In this document: positions 3,647 to 11,866 of the stretch, one piece after another | How positions within the stretch are numbered: the stretch's first letter is position 1 | Layout: every line of letters starts with the position of its first letter | Assembly: GCF_004087835.1 (NCBI RefSeq) | Contig: NZ_CP035119.1 | Span: forward strand, 1,116,001 to 1,180,000 | From: Halorussus pelagicus | GTDB lineage: Archaea > Halobacteriota > Halobacteria > Halobacteriales > Haladaptataceae | Length of the DNA stretch: 64,000 nucleotides | Direction of reading: 5' to 3' | Translations under genes and position numbers: made by a program | The notes under the pieces: generated by a model | The model's input: the letters and a program-made list of their open reading frames with translations, nothing else | The model's database searches: none | What the model was told of the DNA's origin: nothing

Positions 3647-3937
3647 ATGATCGACGTTAAAGAAAATATTGAGCTCCTGCGAAGGTCCGGACGTTTCAAT
3701 TCGGAGGAGGAGTTCCTCGAAGAAGCACTCCGAGCGCTACTAGACAAACGTCCGGAACTCCGAATCGAACTCGCCGTCGAACAGTACAAAACCGGCGACG
3801 TAACCCTCAATCGGGCCGCGGAGATTGCAGGCCGGAGTCCGGAGCAGTTCAAGGAACTACTTCGAGAGAGAGGAATCGGCCGCGATATCGGGTTCCTTAG
3901 CGACGAGGACCGAGACGGGCGACTGGACGGATTATAA
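3647..3937 (+). CDS. UPF0175 family antitoxin-like protein
   Basis: A 96-residue protein of the UPF0175 family. An N-terminal ribbon-helix-helix-like segment (NIELLRRSGRFNSEEEFLEEALRALL) is followed by a short HTH (AVEQYKTGDVTLNRAAEIAGRSPEQFKELLRERG, residues about 43-76). UPF0175 genes are commonly paired with PIN-like toxins. The next gene, 20 bases downstream on the same strand, is such a protein, so this one is inferred to be the DNA-binding antitoxin and autoregulator. A TATA-like tttatta lies at 3600-3606, about 43 bases before the ATG, so the message probably has a short leader. Confidence 0.8.
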   Translation: MIDVKENIELLRRSGRFNSEEEFLEEALRALLDKRPELRIELAVEQYKTGDVTLNRAAEIAGRSPEQFKELLRERGIGRDIGFLSDEDRDGRLDGL

Positions 3938-3957
3938 CCGACAGGGAGCAAGTTCGA

Positions 3958-4470
3958 ATGGTCGTCGTAGACAACAACATACTGAGTTCGTTGGCGAAAA
4001 TCGAACGGGTCGGGCTCTTGCCAGAGGTTTTCGACGAAGTAGCGACCGTTTCCTCGGTGTTCGACGAGTTACATCGAGACGATGTTGCTGGCTACGAGTT
4101 CGTCGAACAAATCGACGACATCAAAGGATATCGTGGTGGATGGCTTCACGTCCGGCCGGTGACTGAATCGGAACTCCAGTTTGCGGACGAAATTGTCGAT
4201 CCGTCACTATCGTTTACCGATGCGGAATGCCTCGCCGTCGCGCATCATCGCGATGAACGGCTACTCACTGACGACCGTCACGCCGGAGAGATGGCCGCAC
4301 AACGTGGCGTCGAGGTTTGGGATTTAAAACTTCTACTCGAAGCTGCAGTCACGAAGGGATCTCTTGATACCGCTTCAGAGGTGGAGAGTGTCATCAACGA
4401 TTTGCGAGAGGAAGATGGATACCGTTTTTCTGACGACGACCAGCGAGACCTCTTCGACCGTCTATCGTGA
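3958..4470 (+). CDS. PIN-like (DUF3368-type) toxin
   Basis: A 170-residue PIN-fold protein. The first beta strand holds an acidic residue (VVVDNNILSSLAKI, D5), a mid-protein helix carries SFTDAECLAVA, and the last acidic cluster is RLLTDDRHAGEMA. This is the PIN arrangement of three to four metal-binding acids, as in DUF3368/VapC-like ribonucleases. It follows the UPF0175 gene by 20 bases and is presumably translated from the same transcript. The C-terminal 40 residues (from about 130) are an acidic helical extension. Function as an RNase toxin is inferred from family and pairing. Confidence 0.78.
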   Translation: MVVVDNNILSSLAKIERVGLLPEVFDEVATVSSVFDELHRDDVAGYEFVEQIDDIKGYRGGWLHVRPVTESELQFADEIVDPSLSFTDAECLAVAHHRDERLLTDDRHAGEMAAQRGVEVWDLKLLLEAAVTKGSLDTASEVESVINDLREEDGYRFSDDDQRDLFDRLS

Positions 4471-5318: not shown

Positions 5319-5380
5319 TATTTATACTATAATATATATAAAAATTTATTTATTGTATTAATATGTATGGGTAAGTGGAG
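5319..5380 (+). promoter_or_regulatory. AT-rich promoter and Shine-Dalgarno of the peptide gene
   Basis: A block of almost pure A/T (about 5308-5362) contains several overlapping TATA-like stretches ahead of the small peptide gene. A GGAG at 5377-5380 sits 7 bases before the ATG at 5388, a classical Shine-Dalgarno spacing. Most genes nearby look leaderless, so a led message with a ribosome site supports real translation of the 33-codon ORF. Which TATA copy is used cannot be decided from sequence. Confidence 0.5.
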
Positions 5381-5387
5381 CAATACC

Positions 5388-5489
5388 ATGAAACACTTTG
5401 TCGAAGACCTCAACGAAAGCGACGTGGAAGATGTCGAGAACCGTACGAACACCGTTGTTTCGACGCCGATCACCTGGTTCGGCGGATAA
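5388..5489 (+). CDS. candidate precursor peptide (33 residues)
   Basis: A very short gene, ATG at 5388 to TAA at 5487-5489. It encodes 33 residues: a hydrophilic acidic first half beginning MKHFVEDL (six more acidic residues follow by position 17), and a neutral Ser/Thr-rich second half ending STPITWFGG. This split (acidic helix-like leader, small Ser/Thr core) is what a RiPP precursor looks like. The gene is convergent with, and 31 bases from, an M50 protease carrying a PqqD-like domain, and that protease is followed by an ATP-grasp ligase of the graspetide-synthetase type. A GGAG ribosome site precedes the ATG. Codon third positions are mixed as in real genes. No acidic residue lies after E17, so if side-chain esters or amides form, their carboxylates must come from the first half; otherwise the C-terminal glycine carboxylate may be the activated group. 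The RiPP role is inferred; the ORF itself is read directly. Confidence 0.65.
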   Translation: MKHFVEDLNESDVEDVENRTNTVVSTPITWFGG

Positions 5490-5520
5490 CTCGCTCCGCT
5501 TACGACACGTCTTTTTTCGG

Positions 5521-6426
5521 TCACCACGGAACGTCGAGGAGTCCCGCCGACCCCGCTAGCGAGAGGACCGACGCGACCGCGATGAACGCACCGAACCCGT
5601 ACGAGAGCAGCACGTACGCCGCCGCGGGCGTCGGATCGAGCCGCTTGAGACTCTCGATGCCGCGATTTCGGAGGTCTACGATACCGAACGCGTCCAGTAG
5701 GAGCCAGTAGCCGTCGCCGTGGATGAGCGGGTTGACGCTGAAGACGATGTGGCCGACGATGACGACGACGAGCGACCCCAACACGAGACTGTCCGGGAAC
5801 CAGAGGTAGTGGACGGCGAGAACGACGGCCATCCACCCGAGTTCCGCCACCGGTCCAGCGAGGCTGATCCACAGTCGGCGGTTGCGCGGCAACAGCCACG
5901 CGCCGGTCGTATCGGTAATGACCGCCGGGATGACGCCGTTGACGCGACCGATTCGGATCGACGGGTCGAGGTGCGACCGACCCGCGAGGTAGTGGCCGAG
6001 TTCGTGGATGGCCAGCGAGAGGACGACGAGACCGCCGAGAGCGAGCAGTTGCTCCGTCGTTCGAAGTCCCAGCGTCGGTCGGAGTTCGGGTCGTTCCAAG
6101 ACCGCGGCGTAGATTCCGAGGCCGAACAGGACGACGAACGCGAGTGCTTGAGGGAGAATCGGGATGTCGTCCGGCGGGACGAACCGGACGACGGGCGCGT
6201 CCGGACGGAGGTACCCCTCCTCTTCAAGTTCCTCGACTAACCGGAGCGCGCCGCCATCGAGATCGGCTTTCGTCATGCTCCCCTCGCCGAGCGCTTCGAC
6301 CAACCGGAACGCGTCGTCGGAGACCCGCTTGAGTTCCCCGTCGGGATTTCGGAGGTAGCGGTCGCCCTCCGCGACGCCCCACGTATAACCGACGGACGCC
6401 TCCTCGCGTTCGATTCGCTCGTTCAT
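5521..6426 (-). CDS. M50-type membrane zinc protease with PqqD-like N-terminal domain
   Basis: A 301-residue protein. Residues about 10-75 form a winged-helix-like segment (DRYLRNPDGELKRVSDDAF, then LRLVEELEEEGYLR) that resembles PqqD/RRE peptide-recognition domains. Hydrophobic segments follow from about 88. The zinc site HELGH is at 141-145 in a membrane segment, and the partner motif NPLIHGDG at 232-239 supplies the third ligand (Asp), as in site-2 proteases. The combination resembles bacterial peptide zinc metalloproteases found in peptide-maturation clusters. It is the second gene of an operon, starting 2 bases after the ATP-grasp stop codon, and ends 31 bases from the convergent peptide gene. 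It probably cleaves or exports the modified peptide; that role is inferred. Confidence 0.85.
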   Translation of the reverse strand: MNERIEREEASVGYTWGVAEGDRYLRNPDGELKRVSDDAFRLVEALGEGSMTKADLDGGALRLVEELEEEGYLRPDAPVVRFVPPDDIPILPQALAFVVLFGLGIYAAVLERPELRPTLGLRTTEQLLALGGLVVLSLAIHELGHYLAGRSHLDPSIRIGRVNGVIPAVITDTTGAWLLPRNRRLWISLAGPVAELGWMAVVLAVHYLWFPDSLVLGSLVVVIVGHIVFSVNPLIHGDGYWLLLDAFGIVDLRNRGIESLKRLDPTPAAAYVLLSYGFGAFIAVASVLSLAGSAGLLDVPW

Positions 6427-6428
6427 CG

Positions 6429-7361
6429 CTAGGCGAGATACGCCGCGAGCGCTCCCGCGACGTTCTGGTCGGCTTTCACGTCGGGGAGCGCGAACCGGGG
6501 CGCTTCGTTCACCTCGATAAGGTGGTACGAGCCGTCGGGACGCCGCCGAACGTCGGCCGCGGTGAACCGGAGTTCCGCGAGGTCGGCCGCCCGCGTCACG
6601 GTGTCTTCGACCACTTCGGAGACCTCCGCCGGGCGAGCGTCCACCTCCTCGCCGTCCTGCTTGTCGAGTTTGAACGAGAACTGGTCGCTCTCGTAGCGGG
6701 CGGCACCGACCACCTCGCCGTCGAGGACGTAGACTCGGAGGTCCACGCCCTCCACGAACTCCTGAAACTGGACCGGGGCAGTCGAGAGACGAGAGAGCGC
6801 CGCGTCCGTCAGGTCGTCCTCAGTCATGACGCGCGGCATCCCGCCGCGCGTCACGGGCTTGTAGACGACTCGGTCGTGGCTCTCGAAGAACGCCCGGACT
6901 TCCTCGGGGTCGTTGGTGAACACCGTGTCCGGAATCGGGAGGTCCGCTCGGGCGAATCGGTGGAGTTGCCACGGCTTTCGGTCCTGCCATCGCTGTTTCG
7001 ACAGCGACGGCACGACGTTCGCACCGTGATGCTCGAAGATTTGCGAAAGGCTCTCAAAGATACTGCGATGTTCGCGGAGTTGACTGAGCGCCGGAAGCAG
7101 GTCGTCATCCAACTCGTCTCGAAACCGCGGGTCGTAGGGTCGAAAGAGGTTGTACGAATCGACGTAGACGCCCGACACCTCGTCGTAGGTGAGACTCGTC
7201 CCGAGGACCGTCTCGTCGCCACCGACCCGAACCGTGAGCGGGACCTCGCCCGGCCAGTCCCGAACGTCGCAGATGACCGCTTCACCGCCCTGTCGCTCGG
7301 CCGCGTCGGCAAGCAGTTCGAACTCCCGTAACTCGCCGTACCCAATGATAACGATTGTCAC
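6429..7361 (-). CDS. ATP-grasp peptide ligase, graspetide-synthetase-like
   Basis: A 310-residue ATP-grasp enzyme. The N-terminal domain (1-115) is a Rossmann-like preATP-grasp fold (MTIVIIGYGEL). A linker with KPWQLHRFARADLPIPDT (129-146) and TNDPEEVRAF (149-158) closely follows the pattern of MvdC/MvdD-type graspetide synthetases. ATP and metal residues are visible in VYKPVTRGG (166-174), QEFVEGVDLRVYV (200-212) and EVNEAPRF (283-290). RimK-type glutamate ligases are the main alternative, but the TNDPEEVRAF block and the neighbours favour peptide macrocyclisation or another peptide ligation. It is first in a two-gene operon with the M50 protease, and a TATA box about 27 bases upstream points to a leaderless message. 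Confidence 0.82.
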   Translation of the reverse strand: MTIVIIGYGELREFELLADAAERQGGEAVICDVRDWPGEVPLTVRVGGDETVLGTSLTYDEVSGVYVDSYNLFRPYDPRFRDELDDDLLPALSQLREHRSIFESLSQIFEHHGANVVPSLSKQRWQDRKPWQLHRFARADLPIPDTVFTNDPEEVRAFFESHDRVVYKPVTRGGMPRVMTEDDLTDAALSRLSTAPVQFQEFVEGVDLRVYVLDGEVVGAARYESDQFSFKLDKQDGEEVDARPAEVSEVVEDTVTRAADLAELRFTAADVRRRPDGSYHLIEVNEAPRFALPDVKADQNVAGALAAYLA

Positions 7362-7451: not shown

Positions 7452-8663
7452 TCAGCCCGACCGCGGAGCCTCGGACAGTTCCGCGTAGGGCGTGAATCCG
7501 TCGTCGGGCGTCACCAACCCCGACTGGAGCGCACACGCCGCCGCGCCGAGACCCCGCGACGACAGCGGACCGCGCCGCACGCACCGGAACGCAATGTTCT
7601 TGGCGGCGTTGTAGTCGTCGTGGGCCGACGCCTCGCACTTCAAGCACTCGAACTGGTTGTCCTCCAGATTCCGATTCTGCGGATGAGTGAACCCACACTC
7701 CATGCAGCGCTGGCTGGTATACTCGGGGTTCACCTCAACGACCGCGATGTCGCGCTCGGCGGCGCGGTACTCCACGAACGAGAGAAGTCGCCCGAAGAGC
7801 CACTCGTGGTACGGGTCGGCCTCGGGAAGCAGGTCGATGGCCTCGTCGAGTTCGCCGAAGGCGACCAGTTCGCAGTCGTACTGCTCGGCCTCGGCGACGA
7901 TGCCGTTGGCGACCTCATGGAGGCGCTGGCGGACGAAGCGGTCGGTTCGGTTGCCCGCCTGCCGGAGGGTCCGAGCGGCGCTCCGGGTACCCGTAGCTTC
8001 GAGCGAAGCCTGCACTCGCTCGAACTCCTCGCGGCGGTGGTTCAGTTCGCCCGCGTCGAAAAAGCGCGCGGTGCTAGTAACGGCAAGGTTCTCGACGCCC
8101 AGATCGACGCCGAGGACCGTCGCGCCCTCCGTCGGCGGGTCGATTGCGGGCCGGGGCGTCCGAAAGCCCAGATGGAAGGTGAACTCGCCGTCGCGGTAGT
8201 GGAGGGTACTCTTGGCGGGTTCCCAGTCCTCGTCGTCGAGGTAGCGCGACTGGTAGCCGTCGTCTGCGGGGAGTTTCAGGTCGCACCGGACGCGCTCGCC
8301 CGTCGTCGTGAGGCTGACGGTCCGGTCGTCGAACACCGTCATCGTCCGGGTGTCGAACGCGACGGTCGGACTCGTGAACTCGGGCTTGGCTGCGTCACGC
8401 TGGTGGGCGCGCTTAATCGCCTCTGCCGCGCGGTGGGTCGCCAACACCGCGTGCTGGCTCCCGAGGTCGGTCTCCTCGCGCAAGCGGTCGTACGCGAGTT
8501 GCTGGACTTCGCTTCGCGTGTGACAGACACCCCACGCCTCGTTGACCGCGAGTTGGCACCCGCGTTTCCACGCTTCGACCAACTCTCGCAGCCGTGGGGC
8601 GTCAGTCGGAGACACGGAGAGTCCGGTGACTGCGGTCCGTCTGCAATATTCGGTGTCTGCCAC
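7452..8663 (-). CDS. tnpB: IS200/IS605-family TnpB (RNA-guided nuclease), stand-alone
   Basis: A 403-residue TnpB. The GTG at 8661-8663 is taken as the start because it begins just before the conserved region; longer in-frame extensions read through non-coding DNA. The RuvC-like catalytic acids are all present: D187 (GVDLGVENLAV), E271 (AFGELDEAI) and D350 (DDYNAAKNI). The zinc ribbon is intact (C320, C323, C340, C343). No tnpA lies beside it, so it is an IS1341-type element mobilised in trans if at all. TnpB proteins are guided by an omegaRNA derived from the 3' end of the gene and element, which would place it around 7363-7500, next to the ATP-grasp promoter. The exact element ends could not be located. 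Confidence 0.9.
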   Translation of the reverse strand: MADTEYCRRTAVTGLSVSPTDAPRLRELVEAWKRGCQLAVNEAWGVCHTRSEVQQLAYDRLREETDLGSQHAVLATHRAAEAIKRAHQRDAAKPEFTSPTVAFDTRTMTVFDDRTVSLTTTGERVRCDLKLPADDGYQSRYLDDEDWEPAKSTLHYRDGEFTFHLGFRTPRPAIDPPTEGATVLGVDLGVENLAVTSTARFFDAGELNHRREEFERVQASLEATGTRSAARTLRQAGNRTDRFVRQRLHEVANGIVAEAEQYDCELVAFGELDEAIDLLPEADPYHEWLFGRLLSFVEYRAAERDIAVVEVNPEYTSQRCMECGFTHPQNRNLEDNQFECLKCEASAHDDYNAAKNIAFRCVRRGPLSSRGLGAAACALQSGLVTPDDGFTPYAELSEAPRSG

Positions 8664-8870
8664 GTTGTACGTGACTGTCTCCGGGGGCCTCTTGAATACT
8701 TTGGCTTGGCCGCAAGAGATAAGACTACTCGCCAGAGGGGTCGTGAAACCGGGTGAGAAACCGCCAGTGAGAGGCAGTCGTCGGGACCAGTGCTGACCGC
8801 TCTGTCGGCGCTCCGAACGCCACCGACGCCGAACCCCACTGTTAATACTCTGCCACGGATACGCATACGC

Positions 8871-11059: not shown

Positions 11060-11866
11060 CTACGAGCTAATTACGAACTCTTTGAGTTTCGTCTTCTGAA
11101 TCTTTCCGAAGTCCGCTTTTCGGTGACAGCTAATGCAGAGGGACACGACATTATCGAGAAAGTGAGCGTCTTCTTTCTTGTGGTTATCAGACTCTGCAAA
11201 TAATCGGACAGGAATGATGTGATGAACGTCCGGATTTCGACCGATTTCGTCTTTTGGCTTCGAACAGCGTGCGCATTCGTAGCCATCACGTTCGAGAGCT
11301 TGGCGACGTGTTGCATTCCAACCGCTTCCGTACGAGCCGTTTCCTCCACCTTTCCAGTTGGGATGACCAGATTGGGTGAACTGTTCGGAGAGCCAATCGG
11401 TCCGGCACTCCTCGCTACAAAGAACGACATTCCCGGATATTTCGCTCGGATACCGGGCAAGAGAGCTATCGCAAACTTCGCAGTTTAGCTGTCTTTTTCC
11501 ACACTTCCATCGTGGATTCTGCTCACCTCGTAACTCGGGCACATCACGCCACGATTCGTTTTCAACGCAGTCCGAACAGTACAGTCCCTCTTTTGCTGAT
11601 TCGTAATACTGGAAGCTTTCGCCACAGAGGAGACAGTCAGTCGATTGTTTCTTACCGCGATAGTTCGGGTTCGACTTCCCCTCAAACGATTGTGACTGCT
11701 GTCGGCAGTTCTCGGAGCAGTATTTATTTTCGTACTCACAGTAGAAGTCGATTTCACAGTTCGAACATGTGCGGTTCGGGAGCGTATTTCCATGTGTTCG
11801 GCTATGATGTACTTTCATGCCACGCTGCGTTTCGAACTCGTCACCACATGTTGGACAGGAGTGCAT
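11060..11866 (-). CDS. HNH endonuclease with multiple zinc fingers
   Basis: A 268-residue protein. It begins with a C2H2-type finger (CPTCGDEF ... HSRTH), followed by several paired CxxC knuckles (CSNC 34-37, CLLC 78-81, CEVC 129-132) and two NPxW/PNW-like DNA-binding motifs (NPRW, HPNWKG) like those of NUMOD/homing-endonuclease proteins. The HNH nuclease is at the C-terminus: CARC (198-201), DVHHIIPV (213-220), N239 and CISCH (244-248). Base composition is clearly lower in GC than the surrounding genes, which suggests transfer. It starts about 110 bases from the 3' end of tRNA-His and is probably a selfish or element-derived nuclease. Confidence 0.85.
   Translation of the reverse strand: MHSCPTCGDEFETQRGMKVHHSRTHGNTLPNRTCSNCEIDFYCEYENKYCSENCRQQSQSFEGKSNPNYRGKKQSTDCLLCGESFQYYESAKEGLYCSDCVENESWRDVPELRGEQNPRWKCGKRQLNCEVCDSSLARYPSEISGNVVLCSEECRTDWLSEQFTQSGHPNWKGGGNGSYGSGWNATRRQALERDGYECARCSKPKDEIGRNPDVHHIIPVRLFAESDNHKKEDAHFLDNVVSLCISCHRKADFGKIQKTKLKEFVISS

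Follow-up and report, generated by a model that had tools for sequence, protein, structure and literature searches.

Is the 33-residue peptide encoded within a 64,000-nucleotide stretch of the Halorussus pelagicus genome (the window) the precursor of a graspetide, and what kind of bond might close a ring in a peptide whose putative core holds no acidic residue? The host genome is haloarchaeal and 3.49 Mb in size. An earlier note, made from the letters of the window alone, had read the short gene and the two-gene operon facing it as a self-contained system for modifying and processing a ribosomally made peptide (RiPP).

Precursor Gene

The precursor gene occupies positions 5388..5489 of the + strand, its 33 codons running from the ATG at 5388 to the TAA at 5489, and its product is MKHFVEDLNESDVEDVENRTNTVVSTPITWFGG. 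Residues 1–21 were assigned to the leader and residues 22–33, TVVSTPITWFGG, to a putative core. The leader opens with the motif MKHFVEDL (5388..5411, +), the counterpart of LFIEDL in the plesiocin precursor PsnA2. A junction motif, E-N-R-T-N-T (5436..5453, +; general form R-x-[NQS]-[TAP]), is a putative recognition or cleavage site of the M50 protease, and the codon of Thr26 (5463..5465, +) specifies the eighth residue from the C-terminus, a putative ring-forming hydroxyl. An alternative in-frame ATG at 5367 would give a product of 40 amino acids; the start was set at 5388 because the relatives begin at the methionine of M[K/E/D]HF. An AT-rich, TATA-like stretch at 5320..5349 (+) is a putative promoter region of the gene, and a similar AT-rich stretch, judged by eye, lies upstream of most precursor relatives. 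The gene converges on the adjacent M50 and ATP-grasp ORFs, with exactly 31 bases between its stop and that of the M50 gene; the short ORF ending in STPITWFGG and its distance from the convergent end of the operon are just as the earlier note had described them.

The core contains neither Asp nor Glu, and the combination of Ser/Thr/Lys with Asp/Glu that marks a core for a side-chain ester or amide was found only in relatives: type B precursors have it, as do roughly half of those of types A/C. A classical side-chain ester is thus impossible inside the core of the 33-mer.

Recurrence and Distribution

The search of haloarchaeal genomes that had been proposed was carried out, and ATP-grasp loci do carry recurring short ORFs with a common leader. 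A profile built from 12 precursors of type A gave 12 matches in 10 of 392 haloarchaeal genomes, every one beside an ATP-grasp homologue, and none in the other 382. The ATP-grasp gene was present in 20 of the 392 genomes of this order sample. By six-frame search of ATP-grasp loci, short ORFs with the same leader were found to adjoin nearly all of them, and additional loci yielded others. Spread over four families of haloarchaea (f1, f4, f5 and f8), these ORFs lie within about 1.5 kb at the homologous loci, on either side of the operon and in both orientations, mostly on the opposite strand. In pairwise comparison of close precursors, most substitutions lay at third codon positions: 8 of 14 in one pair, 10 of 11 in another and 7 of 9 in a third. 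The 33-codon ORF is a real gene.

Within the window's own family, the ATP-grasp gene was found in 9 of 17 Halorussus genomes and in 0 of 11 others. The locus of H. amylolyticus (L035) is orthologous by synteny and has the same leader and the same TPITWFGG end, identical to that of the 33-mer with nucleotide changes there in third positions only; its M50 gene is missing. As to the recurrence of a WFGG-type ending, on which the earlier reading had depended, the small ORF with the same leader does recur but the ending was found only in H. amylolyticus besides. We therefore rejected WFGG as a family signature, the recurring part being the leader. Small-ORF searches in L005, L006, L043 and L057 found no precursor; L043 has a truncated M50. 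Beyond the haloarchaea, no homologue was detected at E 1e-40 among 345 sampled genomes of the phylum, and the IMG/VR viral contigs yielded no homologue.

Gene arrangement differed among loci. An ATP-grasp gene and a precursor lie between atpB and atpD, genes of the A-type ATP synthase, in two Halorussus genomes (the G176/G156 pair; L036:5307-6400 and L037:4937-6041). Three further Halorussus loci (L044, L045 and L046) each have a tandem pair of ATP-grasp genes from separate clades, with a single precursor found, and the tandem enzymes may act one after the other. At one MAG locus (L080:4186-5051), at least three type B precursors are encoded consecutively, and M50 is absent from the surroundings.

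ATP-Grasp Ligase

The gene at 6429..7361 (−) encodes a peptide ligase of the ATP-grasp type that belongs to the lineage of graspetide synthetases. Among solved structures, the top match of its product was PsnB, the plesiocin synthetase of graspetide group 2 (2.3e-34), and the predicted structure (mean pLDDT 93.5) likewise gave PsnB as the best Foldseek fold (E 2e-27, TM about 0.84), with MdnC, CdnC, PruB and RimK below it and the ArgX fold also lower. The protein matched the graspetide-maturase models TIGR04187 (5.6e-27), MvdD and MvdC, all below their curated cut-offs, and a RimK-like Pfam family. The TNDPEEVRAF block by which a graspetide-type enzyme had been recognized is present and largely common to PsnB, and the claim holds, PsnB being the best relative by both sequence and fold.

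Arg209, invariant in all rows compared, aligns with PsnB R213 (numbered after subtraction of a presumed 20-residue tag), which we take to be the residue recognizing the ring-forming acid. D270, E283 and N285 were invariant in all rows covering them. Ten positions common to PsnB and the type B enzymes differ in the type A/C enzymes; positions 223, 229 and 231 were switched in 21 of 21 type A/C enzymes (I to Y, D to S/T and R to K/Q), and positions 287, 289 and 293, adjoining the ExN motif, were changed as well. The replacement of the D-[FY]-R motif of PsnB and type B by [ST]-[FY]-[KQ] suggests that the chemistry of the type A/C enzymes may have changed. In the ATP-grasp tree, PsnB fell on the type B side, with types A and C across a well-supported branch (97/96), the tree having no known root and the PsnB branch being long.

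Adjoining the ATP-grasp gene is a TnpB/IS605 OrfB-like gene (7452-8870, −). Over 415 residues, its product shares 86% identity with that of the gene at the corresponding position in H. amylolyticus, compared with 75% for the ATP-grasp protein; this stronger conservation may mean that the gene is retained for a function. Elsewhere in the window, the gene of a UPF0175 protein precedes that of a 170-aa protein without a Pfam match (3647-4470, +), a layout that looks like a toxin-antitoxin pair, and the region 11060-11866 (−) encodes an HNH endonuclease protein whose Cys pairs resemble those of zinc fingers.

M50 Protease and Junction Motif

The second gene of the operon (5521..6426, −) encodes an M50-type intramembrane zinc metalloprotease, a putative leader peptidase, with HExxH at residues 141–145 and an NPLIHGDGY motif. 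His141, Glu142 and His145, together with P233..G237-D238-G239, were invariant in 19 of 19 M50 homologues. All 19 were matched weakly by Pfam M50, and for all 19 the daptide RiPP intramembrane protease was the top NCBIfam model, below its cut-off. The best fold for the predicted structure was SpoIVFB, a weak match (E 0.016). The gene had been described as an M50 protease with a PqqD-like N-terminal segment. Its M50 identity is borne out by the invariant HExxH and the Pfam matches, but PqqD was matched by neither Pfam nor NCBIfam; the N-terminal domain of the model (strands 2–7, 12–19, 22–26 and 32–35, helices 37–48 and 58–69, strand 79–83) is, as part of the whole-protein model, only compatible with a PqqD fold.

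All 13 genomes of the class sample that have this M50 also hold the ATP-grasp gene. The M50 gene was missing from six precursor loci and from the whole of genome G176, some of the M50-less genomes being incomplete or having an M50 in a second cluster. The junction motif was present in 25 of 25 loci with M50 versus 1 of 6 without (Fisher p 3.5e-5, the loci being non-independent); four of the five precursors without it are in the window's own clade, so the loss events are far fewer than five independent ones. The motif was drawn up on these data; among loci seen later (L078, L079, L080, L090-L094 and L097), 8 of 9 fit. The exception, L080, lacks M50 and keeps the motif, which weakened the idea that M50 loss and motif loss are strictly coupled. 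PsnA2 has GG in the stretch matching the haloarchaeal junction motif, from which we infer that the M50 takes the place of a double-glycine peptidase. Besides the ATP-grasp gene, no exporter or other conserved linked gene was found at these loci. Of the self-contained three-gene system envisaged earlier, the RiPP reading is supported, but several related loci lack M50, so that not all have the full set of three genes.

Core Variation and the Residue at Position −8

The cores of type A/C precursors vary strongly and lack TTxxxxEE. Ser or Thr nonetheless stands exactly at −8 from the C-terminus in 14 of 17 type A/C precursors (permutation p < 5e-5 for all, 0.006 when thinned to ten lineages), or 15 of 18 with L097 added, and the spacing between it and the junction ranges from about 4 to 11. 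The tails read after the −8 idea had been noted (L052, L078, L079 and L097) all fit (4 of 4, chance 0.0017), L078 and L097 being weak profile matches and L097 having been picked by eye from its FVEDL. Asp or Glu occurs at −3 in 8 of the first 17 type A/C precursors, and all eight have S/T-x4-D/E, the inner-ring spacing of TTxxxxEE. With their acid five residues past the −8 Ser/Thr, roughly half of the type A/C cores could form a normal ester instead; the 33-mer has Phe at −3.

Because the C-terminus is the sole carboxylate left after cleavage, a lactone from Thr26 to the tail residue Gly33 is the product that we tentatively predict for the 33-mer, if any ring lies wholly within its core; we would put this forward as a possibility at best. 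A broader proposal for the type A/C branch is somewhat more doubtful still: the remodeled synthetase would activate the alpha-carboxylate at the C-terminus and join it to the −8 Ser/Thr as a tail lactone of eight residues, giving AIP-like depsipeptide rings released by the M50. If true, the tail lactone would add a new type of bond to the repertoire of graspetide enzymes and might serve as a peptide signal in haloarchaea.

Proposed System and Alternatives

Taken together, enzyme homology, fold, leader, gene linkage and protease family point to a haloarchaeal graspetide RiPP system of the plesiocin lineage (group 2) with the M50 as leader peptidase, a reading that we consider probable; the ester chemistry, the cleavage site, export and the biological role are inferred. 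The likeness to PsnB and the leader thus support the graspetide assignment made earlier, but the core is without the acid that a classical ester needs. In the proposed pathway, the 33-residue precursor would be read from its own promoter, and its leader (HFVEDL..., residues 1–21) would bind to the ATP-grasp enzyme in the way that LFIEDL docks on PsnB. A carboxylate would be phosphorylated by the enzyme and attacked by a Ser/Thr hydroxyl, for which Thr26 is the best candidate, to form a macrolactone with loss of water. The membrane M50 would then cut at or near ENRTN/T, freeing a small, species-specific cyclic peptide. The variability of the cores and their patchy distribution suggest a role as a strain-specific signal or antagonistic peptide.

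That the short ORF arose by chance, or is an antisense feature without connection to the operon, might be argued from its small size and its absence from public gene tables, which are incomplete. It recurs, however, with the enzymes across families, whichever its orientation or its side of the operon, and we rejected this explanation with near certainty, given that the type A profile matches only ATP-grasp loci among the 392 genomes. A decayed copy, in which the 33-mer is still made and no longer modified, would account for the acid-free core, the presence in only some Halorussus genomes (9 of 17) and a locus such as L043 with its truncated M50 and no precursor; both enzymes of the window are nevertheless intact with their catalytic residues, and TPITWFGG is retained unchanged in H. 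amylolyticus through third-position changes only, which makes decay quite improbable.

Other alternatives concern the bond itself. The ring might join Glu10, Glu14 or Glu17 of the leader or linker to a core Ser/Thr, with the cut made upstream and part of the 'leader' kept in the product. The acid-rich linker of type A precursors, missing from type B, and the retention of Glu17 in most of them are consistent with such a ring, but most precursors from loci without M50 have lost the junction motif as well. The motif with its Glu17 also occurs in type B, whose acids sit in the core, and hence looks like a leader feature; on balance we regard this arrangement as unlikely. Less likely again is ligation without a ring, the ATP-grasp enzyme adding an amino acid, an amine or a Glu tail to the peptide C-terminus in the manner of RimK. 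It would suit the RimK-like Pfam match, the RimK and ArgX folds lower in the Foldseek list, the altered active site and the free C-terminus that is the sole carboxylate in several cores. Graspetide cyclases are, however, the nearest relatives by a wide margin, and simple ligation would have no need of a fixed Ser/Thr at −8.

The plesiocin-lineage reading would place in the haloarchaea a graspetide family with an intramembrane protease of its own, in a class that is otherwise mostly bacterial, and its constant leader with fast-changing cores offers a handle for genome mining. If the acid-free cores are cyclized, their enzymes carry out a reaction without a graspetide precedent known to us. The M50 is a candidate leader peptidase for graspetides, the leader-cleaving enzyme of which is called unknown in the available text of PMC8939145.

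Comparison with Known Systems

It is possible that some of the haloarchaeal loci already lie within the sequence sets of published graspetide surveys. The 'Thermoprotea' of graspetide group 36 are apparently archaea. That group, reported only from them, has a chromosome-segregation-like partner rather than an M50 (PMC13097080, available text), and by this description alone we set it apart from the haloarchaeal set. As far as the available text of PMC8939145 and PMC13097080 goes, proteases occur near some groups, with no mention of haloarchaea or M50. A 2025 survey of archaeal RiPPs (PMC12144867), in the main text of which graspetides or ATP-grasp are absent, describes haloarchaeal lanthipeptides, RiPPs frequent in Halorussus that are made by a LanM enzyme with other chemistry.

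The daptide and YydH/LiaK RiPP proteases resemble the haloarchaeal M50 in being M50-like HExxH membrane proteases dedicated to a RiPP cluster. The haloarchaeal M50, however, scores 56 bits against a daptide cut-off of 300 and has no daptide partner genes beside it, and daptide membership was rejected on both grounds. The microviridin and chryseoviridin cyclases (MdnB, MdnC and CdnC) share the fold and the ATP-grasp catalytic layout but are farther away than PsnB (9e-6 to 3e-10), and their PFFARFL leader motif is absent here.

Plesiocin (PsnA2/PsnB) provides the best enzyme match by sequence and fold, a leader motif LFIEDL corresponding to HFVEDL, and the arginine equivalent to R213. The solved PsnA2 fragment is LFIEDLGKVTGGKGGPYTTLAIGEE, with letters and chain name from the database; the chain was found with a guessed query, so that its E-value of 0.005 carries no meaning. 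A haloarchaeal type B precursor, HFVEDLEERTNASIATPTTLAVGEE, shares its leader motif, spacing and core with this fragment; type B relatives retain the core as TTxxxxE(E), and the type B cores TTLAVGEE and TTMAMGEE resemble TTLAIGEE of PsnA2, the TTxxxxEE motifs having been read off the sequences themselves. These likenesses, together with the position of PsnB on the type B side of the tree, lead us to assign the haloarchaeal group to the plesiocin lineage. Unlike plesiocin, the 33-mer has a core without TTxxxxEE or any acid and a leader without a GG site, its operon includes an M50 protease, and D-[FY]-R of the enzyme is replaced; judged by its sequences, the system of the 33-mer belongs to a diverged branch of the plesiocin lineage.
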